From contig LT635553.1 of NCBI GenBank assembly GCA_900120395.1, forward strand, positions 486,186 through 550,185: a stretch of 64,000 nt of DNA, written 5' to 3'. A program made the translations under genes and the position numbers. Source of the DNA: Porphyromonadaceae bacterium FC4. Its GTDB lineage: Bacteria > Bacteroidota > Bacteroidia > Bacteroidales > Porphyromonadaceae. Below, piece after piece: positions 4,957 to 63,338 of this stretch; the first letter of the stretch is position 1; every line of letters starts with the position of its first letter. The notes beneath the pieces are model-generated. The model was given only the letters and a program-made list of their open reading frames with translations. It was not told the DNA's origin and ran no database searches.

Positions 4957-5100
4957 TGATAAACAGATGGTTGTGGTTGCCGAAAAAATCAATACCTAAA
5001 GCCCAAAAGTTTCCTACTGGAAACTTTTCGCTACTATCCGTCAAACCGTTCTCTTTCCTACTGGAAACTTTTCGCTACTATCCGTGAAACTTTTTTGTCC
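4957..5100 (+). repeat. Interspersed 44-bp double stem-loop repeat, copy 1 (full length)
   Basis: Left arm starting TGATAAACAGATG (4957), then cores TTTCCTACTGGAAA at 5010-5023 and 5054-5067, each followed by CGCTACTATCCGT, and a T-run at 5091-5096. The first core extends to 10-base arms AAAAGTTTCC/GGAAACTTTT with a TACT loop. It fills the gap upstream of the small membrane protein, beyond the terminator of the galactose operon. Confidence 0.95.
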
Positions 5101-11769: not shown

Positions 11770-11882
11770 AAAAAGTTTCCAGTAGGAAAGAGATCGCTTC
11801 TATCCGTGAAACAGTTCTCTTTCCTACTGGAAACATTTCTCTTCTATCCGTCAAGTTTTTCGGCTCAATCCTTAGGGAGCGG
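11770..11882 (+). repeat. 44-bp double stem-loop repeat, copy 2
   Basis: Cores at 11776-11789 (TTTCCAGTAGGAAA, inverted loop) and 11820-11833 (TTTCCTACTGGAAA), 44 bases apart; tails CTTCTATCCGT; right arm diverged (TTTTTCGGCTCAATCC). Lies in the divergent gap between galM and the alpha/beta hydrolase. Its first 60 or so bases match copy 3 exactly. Confidence 0.93.
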
Positions 11883-14276: not shown

Positions 14277-14384
14277 TAAAAAGTTTCCAGTAGGAAAGAG
14301 ATCGCTTCTATCCGTGAAACAGTTCTCTTTCCTACTGGAAACTTTTCGCTTCTATCCGTCCAATTTTTTTGCCCCGAACTGAGG
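14277..14384 (+). repeat. 44-bp double stem-loop repeat, copy 3
   Basis: Cores at 14284-14297 (AGTA loop) and 14328-14341 (TACT loop), spacing 44; right arm TTTTTTTGCCCCGAACTG. It begins 12 bases after the methyltransferase stop. The first half is identical to copy 2, including the inverted first loop. Confidence 0.95.
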
Positions 14385-21801: not shown

Positions 21802-21958
21802 CCGCGCCGGATCGAGCCGAAAAATTTGACGGATAGCAGCCAAAAGTTTCCAGTAGGAAACAAAACGATTTGACGGATAGTAGCGAAAAGTTTCCTACTG
21901 GAAACTTTTCCCCCTCCACCACCCCTGTTTTTAGGTAGATGTATCTATTTGTTTATCA
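21802..21958 (-). repeat. 44-bp double stem-loop repeat, copy 4 (full length, reverse)
   Basis: Reading on the minus strand: left arm TGATAAACA (complement of 21950-21958), core at 21891-21904 (AGTA loop on this strand), tail, core at 21847-21860 (TACT loop), tail, right arm with the complement of GCGCCGGATCGAGCCG. Core spacing 44. It lies in the divergent gap before the SusC/SusD locus. Confidence 0.95.
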
Positions 21959-30965: not shown

Positions 30966-31080
30966 CCAAAAATTTCCTACTGGAAACAGATCGCTTCTAT
31001 CCGTCAAATCGTTTTCTTTCCTACTGAAAACATTTCGCTACTATCCGTCAAATTTTTTTCGAGTGAGCGGGAGGGAAAAA
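30966..31080 (+). repeat. 44-bp double stem-loop repeat, copy 5
   Basis: Cores at 30973-30986 (TTTCCTACTGGAAA) and 31017-31030 (TTTCCTACTGAAAA, one base off), spacing 44; tails CTTCTATCCGT and CGCTACTATCCGT; T-run at 31052-31059. Lies between convergent genes, next to the sialidase terminator. Confidence 0.94.
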
Positions 31081-34828: not shown

Positions 34829-34929
34829 ACACTATTATTCCACAACCCTATCCGTTGATTTTGTCGATCCCCGACAGGATAGAGCGCCCTAATTTTTCTG
34901 GGATTTTTTGGCTCGTATAAGAGAGAAAA

Positions 34930-35060
34930 AATGACGGATAGTAGCGAAAAGTTTCCAGTAGGAAAGAAAACGATTTGACGGATAGAAGAGAAATGTTTCC
35001 AGTAGGAAACTTTTCGCTAGTATCCGTCTAATGTTTTGTCCGAATCCGGGGGCGGAAAAA
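34930..35060 (-). repeat. 44-bp double stem-loop repeat, copy 6 (double-ended)
   Basis: Cores TTTCCAGTAGGAAA at 34952-34965 and 34996-35009, spacing 44. Reverse-strand tails (GACGGATAG) lie left of each core, but a forward tail (CGCTAGTATCCGT) and a right arm (CCGAATCCGGGGGCGG) also follow the second core, so both ends look like tail ends. Confidence 0.93.
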
Positions 35061-42115: not shown

Positions 42116-42226
42116 TTTCGCTGCGAATCCGTCCAAGAATTTCACGGATAGAAGCGAAAAGTTTCCAGTAGGAAAGAAAATGATTTGACGGATAGTAGCG
42201 AACGGTTTTCAGTAGGAAACTTTTTG
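42116..42226 (-). repeat. 44-bp double stem-loop repeat, copy 7 (reverse)
   Basis: Cores at 42162-42175 (TTTCCAGTAGGAAA) and 42206-42219 (TTTTCAGTAGGAAA), spacing 44, each preceded by a reverse tail (CACGGATAG, GACGGATAG). The right arm (reverse) GCTGCGAATCCGTCC is diverged. Lies in the divergent gap between prmA and the YtxH-like gene. Confidence 0.92.
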
Positions 42227-47982: not shown

Positions 47983-48122
47983 TTGATAAACAGATGAATA
48001 TGGGTGTCGTAAAAACAGGTGCCTGATCGATAAAAGTTTCCTACTGGAAACCTTTCGCTTCTATCCGTCAAATCGTTTTCTTTCCTACTGGAAACATTTC
48101 GCTACTATCCGTCAAATTTTTT
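47983..48122 (+). repeat. 44-bp double stem-loop repeat, copy 8 (full length)
   Basis: Left arm TTGATAAACAGATG (47983), cores TTTCCTACTGGAAA at 48037-48050 and 48081-48094, spacing 44, tails CTTCTATCCGT and CGCTACTATCCGT, T-run to 48122. It begins 32 bases after the MITE-like element's target duplication. Confidence 0.95.
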
Positions 48123-55182: not shown

Positions 55183-55294
55183 ATAAAATAATGTGGAGCT
55201 GTCTCGCTCTCTTTTCGCCCGTAGCACCTCCCACGCCTTCACGCCCCGACGAGACCCTCCGGCATCGGGTTAAGACACCTCGCTCCACATGTTG

Positions 55295-55458
55295 TTGAAA
55301 AACAGATAGTTGCTTATGCTGAAAAATTTAGTACGTGATCGCCAAAAGTTTCCTACTGGAAACATTTCTCTTCTATCCGTGAAACATTTCTCTTTCCTAC
55401 TGGAAACTTTTCGCTACTATCCGTCTAATTTTTTGCCCCGATCCGGAGCGAAGAAAAG
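55295..55458 (+). repeat. 44-bp double stem-loop repeat, copy 9 (full length, best example)
   Basis: Left arm TTGAAAAACAGATA (55295), cores TTTCCTACTGGAAA at 55349-55362 and 55393-55406, spacing 44, tails CTTCTATCCGT and CGCTACTATCCGT, T-run, right arm GCCCCGATCCGGAGCG. Lies in the divergent gap between rnr and the outer-membrane barrel gene. Confidence 0.96.
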
Positions 55459-63222: not shown

Positions 63223-63338
63223 GCAAAAAGTTTCCTACTGGAAACCGTTTGCTACTATCCGTCAAATCATTTTCTTTCCTACTGGAAATATTTCGCTACT
63301 ATCCGTCAAATTTTTTTGCTCGGCTCGAAGCGCAAAAA
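63223..63338 (+). repeat. 44-bp double stem-loop repeat, copy 10
   Basis: Cores TTTCCTACTGGAAA at 63231-63244 and TTTCCTACTGGAAA at 63275-63288, spacing 44; tails TGCTACTATCCGT and CGCTACTATCCGT; T-run then GCTCGGCTCGAAGCGC as right arm. Confidence 0.95.

Follow-up and report, generated by a model that had tools for sequence, protein, structure and literature searches.

The repeat described here lies on the plus strand of the window, i.e., the whole 64,000-nucleotide stretch of the Porphyromonadaceae bacterium FC4 genome that was analysed. Its core (55344-55434, 91 bp) consists of two A-B pairs of 22-bp units in the order A-B-A-B, and its arms reach out to about 55288 on the left and about 55457 on the right. 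The A units are palindromes in which two 6-bp half-sites flank a 4-bp centre. The first, GTTTCC-TACT-GGAAAC, occupies 55348-55363 (identity among copies 0.88), and the second is found exactly 44 bp further on at 55392-55407 (0.98). Both palindromes are followed by a box containing CTATCCGT: box B1, an asymmetric unit including CTATCCGTGAAA, spans 55364-55387 (0.82), and box B2, which closes with CTATCCGTCTAATTTTT, spans 55408-55434 (0.84). In element coordinates, which are counted relative to the second palindrome and in which the whole core runs from -49 to +41, the left inner arm (-72 to -50; 55321-55343, identity 0.37) carries an AAAAA tract at 55322-55326 and then a diverged GGTGCCTGATCGCC-like stretch. 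The left outer arm (-105 to -73; 55288-55320) contains TGAAAAACAGATA at 55296-55308, a motif found in 46 to 47 of 102 copies, and an A-tract at about -93 that follows a 22-23-bp register. In this copy, 35 bases separate CAGATA from AAAAG. The right arm (55435-55457, identity 0.375) is TGCCCCGATCCGGAGCGAAGAAA-like, reads GCCCCGATCCGGAGCG here and amounts to about one more 22-bp unit, while the left arm comprises about three units in the same register. The copy thus belongs to a larger unit of about 165-176 bp, or about eight 22-bp units.

Further copies are dispersed over the window. Plus-strand cores are located at 5005-5095 (copy 1, left arm present), 11771-11861 (copy 2), 14279-14369 (copy 3, with a second type of left arm, TGACGTGTACT), 30968-31058 (copy 5), 48032-48122 (copy 8, left arm present) and 63226-63316 (copy 10). 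Minus-strand cores are located at 21819-21909 (copy 4), 34924-35014 (copy 6) and 42134-42224 (copy 7), and at 21819 and 42134 a diverged left arm stands at the equivalent place. The original prediction had assigned a left arm to copies 1, 4, 8 and 9 at a distance of 35-36 bases. The distance between CAGAT(A/G) and AAAAG is indeed exactly 35 in the copies at 5005, 48032 and 55344; the arm of copy 4 is diverged, and the copy at 42134 had been overlooked. Some variation is also seen within the cores. Across 76 doublets, the cores are in direct order in 84%, and the centre of the first core is inverted in the remaining 16%; the B boxes of the doublets are direct. In the window, this inversion (AGTA for TACT) is observed at 11771, 14279 and 21819. 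The centre of the second palindrome, read in the orientation of the element, was never seen inverted. In copy 6 and a few others, the first palindrome has a B box in inverted orientation on its left, which creates a near-perfect palindrome of about 50 bp. When the window was searched with Rfam models, only two tRNAs were matched, and the element has no match to a curated Rfam model.

The larger unit was evaluated in an ungapped alignment of the copies, in which positions -49 to +41 (the core) hardly vary. Over 76 copies, columns between about -95 and -50 and between +42 and +64 carry more information than background, and the level falls to background past about -105 and +65. Moreover, AAACAGATG (with at most two mismatches) was present in the left arm of 46 of 102 copies taken genome-wide with 200 bases of flank each, vs a mean of 12.5 and a maximum of 21 in shuffled arms. 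Information above background in both arms, together with a left motif exceeding the shuffles, argues that the larger unit is real. The claim that the double hairpin is the middle of a full-length form of about 170 bp, with conservation beyond the cores and tails, was therefore confirmed. A/T tracts at about -93, -70, -48, -4, 17, 39 and 61 describe a register of about 22 bp that runs from the arms through the core, and the 22-bp amplitude of the left arm was above that of all 2000 shuffles. The copies without the expected left arm had been considered truncated or diverged. Diverged copies do occur; in some cases, a different arm is present instead. Indeed, two mutually exclusive left-arm types exist, TGATAAACAG in 47 copies and TTGACGTGTACT in 8, and in some copies of the TTGACGTGTACT type the right-hand homology extends past 100 bp. 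The shared T-run arm on the right likewise holds up to +64, at a weak identity of about 0.37.

Two other explanations of the arms were considered and abandoned. If the arms were conserved hairpins, halves from the same copy should pair better than halves from different copies, and they do not; a long outer stem gave one weak signal (P 0.03), which was taken as chance among 11 tests. As for a coding remnant, the YxxDKQxD-like reading lies in a frame that is not clearly longer than others upstream. Left arms (e.g., 55296-55340) nonetheless vary in a codon-like manner, giving YxxDKQxDxxxxxK and a stop, and no open frame enters them. The left arm is possibly the remnant of a gene end.

Mean pairwise identity drops from 0.82-0.98 in the core to about 0.37 in the right arm and the inner part of the left arm; it is 0.28 in the outer part of the left arm and 0.25 in the sequence further out. 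Such a difference between core and arms in the same copies is as expected if selection acts on the core, although concerted evolution could also keep the cores alike. The arm boundaries are gradual, and not the sharp ones that the original prediction had proposed to look for. No target-site duplications or direct repeats at any fixed register were detected around 40 full-length copies, and no terminal inverted repeats were seen at the element ends. The element lacks the two hallmarks of a unit that has moved recently, sharp ends and direct repeats at its flanks. We read the element as an old unit that was copied long ago and whose middle is kept while its ends decay.

The main rival to a function of the arrays is a selfish, non-autonomous repeat of the MITE or REPIN kind, served in trans by a transposase or recombinase. 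Target exclusion would then generate even spacing, and family replacement would produce species dialects. The homologous arms do show that the unit was copied. The nearest published element, BrickBuilt, also has tandem short units and is intergenic and dispersed. It is regarded as a MITE, with empty sites in some strains, and places up to 22.8 direct 23-nt repeats between a differing leader and tail, with IS5-like terminal inverted repeats; it has 19 copies and is known only from P. gingivalis and P. gulae (PMC4596501). The present element shares the tandem organization (a 44-bp pair of 22-bp units whose register enters the arms). It differs in its copy number of about 260, in 22-bp units that include palindromes, in its even spacing and in the lack of visible terminal inverted repeats or target-site duplications. 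The decay of the arms around a preserved core is, in addition, the reverse of what a recent burst would leave. We consider a selfish origin of the observed pattern rather unlikely.

REP, BIME and REPIN elements mobilized by RAYT proteins resemble the present element in being hundreds of intergenic, species-specific palindromes; the direct A-B-A-B order on a 22-bp pitch sets it apart. A single Y1 transposase was found in the genome; it is IS200/IS605-like, scoring over the cut-off for that model and under it for the REP-associated one. This gene (L081:1495-1914; G000:C4:787659-788000, G000 being the genome of the window) lies among numerous GACCCC..GGGGTC palindromes, which apparently form a REP-like family of their own, served by this transposase, and the nearest copy of the element stands about 750 bp downstream, beyond these palindromes. 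With a different palindrome family around the gene, a REP-RAYT origin finds no support. The NIME/dRS3 repeats of Neisseria are also numerous short inverted repeats in intergenic mosaics; they are not known to have a fixed 22-bp pitch. Membership of the element in known repeat families is in each case unsupported or unproven. An unrelated repeat was noticed in the sampled stretches of contig C4 (L125-L144), where about 28 copies contain GTCGCACCCCACATGGGGTGCGTGAATTGAAAC; it is probably a CRISPR array.

A pattern search returned 438 exact TTTCCTACTGGAAA cores in the organism's own genome (2.12 Mb, 4 contigs), vs 0 for the reversed control. In 864 kb, i.e., the window plus 800 kb of the same genome taken as 20-kb stretches, 105 elements were counted, which corresponds to about 258 per genome, or one per 8,000 bases. 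Of 103 elements, 101 lie between the genes predicted by a home-made hexamer-based caller, and the other two overlap called genes. Two long stretches without an exact core (G000:C3:100.8-124.8 kb and 36-52 kb) are unusual and could be acquired islands. The element was not found in viral contigs, plasmids or phages, which is weak evidence as these collections omit records of the organism's own genome and nearest relatives.

The position relative to genes bears on a role in local transcription control, in which the elements would be bidirectional terminators, insulators or upstream regulatory sites of their neighbours. Some cores do resemble weak terminators by score, and the RNA is predicted to fold more stably than shuffled sequences (z -3.0). 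Furthermore, the nearest start codon on the right side of an element is at least 84 bp away, with many at 100-190 bp. The distribution, with 37 of 101 elements between divergent, 49 between co-directional and only 15 between convergent genes, where these classes offer 25%, 56% and 19% of the eligible bases, is nevertheless wrong for terminators. The stem of 6 bp is weak and the arm hairpins lack covariation, so the earlier view that the repeat is not a simple terminator stands. In a small sample, the positions upstream of orthologous genes are not conserved, and the regularity at the kilobase scale would be left unexplained. Local transcription control is a lesser rival and, in our opinion, quite improbable.

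The spacing itself is more even than random placement allows. The coefficient of variation (CV) of the intervals is 0.55, and 5% of them are below 3 kb, compared to 0.90-1.30 and 28-45% for random intergenic placement. The excess evenness persists even when each intergenic region may be used only once, and the observed value was not attained in any of 2000 simulations. The elements show no strand polarity on the chromosome: 55 of 101 neighbouring pairs are co-oriented. Even chromosomal spacing is a known trait of uptake sequences, and the arrays may accordingly be compared to DUS and USS. They could be functional analogues, i.e., self-recognition sequences for natural transformation, with an uptake or recombination factor spreading the arrays and giving rise to dialects and even spacing. 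Species dialects are a known trait of DUS (PMC3630211). Natural competence is reported for P. gingivalis, which is probably a member of the family. Known uptake sequences, however, are asymmetric words of short length that occur in larger numbers and often lie within genes (PMC2346458). Here, palindromic arrays tens of bp long are found at about 260 loci, almost only between genes. An uptake function, the other lesser rival, seems improbable.

The comparison with relatives revealed a feature that could not be read from one window. The 22-bp A-B units, the register of the arms and the family-wide pitch had all escaped the original prediction, whose interpretation is partly supported. The exact core TTTCCTACTGGAAA is absent from 11 congeners and occurs once in the sister genus, as chance allows. 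Arrays in the intergenic DNA of 18 relatives, each sampled over 14-160 kb in total, accumulate at lags of 22 (55 arrays) and 44 (37), vs 11, 8 and 6 at lags 21, 23 and 45 and about 2 elsewhere. The coding DNA of the same relatives shows mainly multiples of 3 and no excess at lag 22 or 44. In 20 genomes that belong to the order but to other families, no array was present in non-coding DNA totalling 48.6 kb, whereas about 27 would be expected at the rate of the family. For G005, G011 and G037, the non-coding sequence is too short to judge. A looser correlation of palindrome centres gave peaks at 22, 33, 44 and 55 bp, plus CRISPR-like ones; the strict version has too few events and is dominated by 66-68-bp periods that look like CRISPR. 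Most sampled species of the family thus have the exact 22/44-bp pitch, with mostly unrelated, species-specific palindromes. A published description of this pitch was not found in the open-access literature searched, which is not proof of novelty.

The letters of the arrays differ from species to species. They read CTAATA-N4-TATTAG in G001 and G006, ACAGAA-N4-TTCTGT in G002, TCCACGTGGA in G012 and TTTCCA-N4-TGGAAA in G004, and others exist; TTTCCTATAGGAAA of G007 is the sole array word near that of the window. Whole-genome counts underline this specificity: CTAATAN4TATTAG occurs 114 times in G001, 221 times in G006 and at most once elsewhere, ACAGAAN4TTCTGT occurs 55 times in G002 and at most twice elsewhere, and TCCACGTGGA occurs 230 times in G012. 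The common geometry, though not that of every species, is a 6-bp half-site, a 4-bp centre, a second half-site and a 6-bp spacer (CTAATA-4-TATTAG-6-, ACAGAA-4-TTCTGT-6-, TTTCCA-4-TGGAAA-6-; GTTTCC-4-GGAAAC in the window). Dyad symmetry is significant (p<=0.05) in 37 of 91 arrays, and in few or none of those of G003, G009, G017, G021 and G023, so palindromes are not universal. Arrays on the 22-bp pitch without clear dyad symmetry were noted in G003 and G017, and in G017 lags of 23 and 46 bp occur as well, as would be expected from BrickBuilt.

Copies in G000 and G012 are homologous outside the palindromes, which indicates that the elements there spread as units; the G012 arrays are larger composites with a middle in common. 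In G001 and G006, the spacer letters vary and the spacer length does not, the number of palindromes is variable, and the flanks look unrelated. High copy number, confinement to one species and positions that differ between species would suit a selfish repeat. Arrays of variable palindrome number without evident common flanks fit it poorly, and it does not account for a 22-bp pitch that stays fixed while the letters change between species. Regular spacing is also seen in G001 (no interval under 6 kb, the shortest being 6.0 kb; CV 0.63) and in G012 (CV 0.67, P 0.003). The exact pattern in G002 gives a CV of 0.92 and no regularity; degenerate arrays and the species' second repeat family are not captured by this pattern. 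Regularity at the kilobase scale thus rests on three species so far (G000, G001 and G012). Conservation of array positions upstream of orthologues was not detected (odds ratio about 1), in a small sample with few cases.

Dispersed short palindromes of about 12-16 bp are also known from parS, the Noc binding sites (NBS), the SlmA sites (SBS) and matS, to which ParB, Noc, SlmA and MatP, respectively, bind as dimers. Those sites are mostly single and present in tens of copies, whereas the present ones form tandem arrays on a fixed 22-bp pitch at about 260 loci, with a putative binder. Within the ParB/Noc family, binding specificity can switch (PMC7383237). The observed anatomy, pitch, copy number, dialects, even spacing and differential conservation suggest to us, at somewhat less than an even chance, that each array is a platform bound by a dimeric protein which recognises a specific DNA sequence, co-evolves with it and marks or organises the chromosome. 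The protein is putative, its binding is predicted, and its chromosome-scale role is inferred. Each array would seat rows of putative dimers on the palindromic half-sites. At a distance of 22 bp, i.e., two helical turns, neighbouring dimers would all sit on the same side of the helix. With one array per 8 kb or so, the arrays would serve as marks on the chromosome or as anchors of loops or of topological (supercoil) domains. As the specificity of the protein drifts, the letters of the arrays would change and the pitch would stay, leaving one dialect per species. A fixed two-turn pitch, dyad half-sites, free spacers, dialects and even spacing are the expected trace of such a row of dimers. Because array positions are not conserved, a chromosome-scale role fits the spacing better than a gene-specific one; a selfish repeat also explains the non-conserved positions. 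Past dispersal by copying of the unit would be compatible with binding platforms.

Repeats scattered between genes tend to be classed as selfish or as having no known use, since interspecies sequence comparison finds nothing. Here, geometry is conserved where letters are not, the pitch in most sampled relatives and the kilobase spacing in three species, and geometry kept without sequence is a signature of a function at the DNA level. More tentatively still, the family may keep a chromosome-wide grid of fixed geometry (often 6-4-6, with a 22-bp pitch and about 8-20 kb between arrays), whose letters are rewritten together with a putative architectural or self-recognition protein. If true, chromosome organisation or self-recognition in the lineage would have a further layer that is encoded in sequence and evolves fast, and repeats of 22/23 bp, among them BrickBuilt in P. 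gingivalis, may find their explanation in it.
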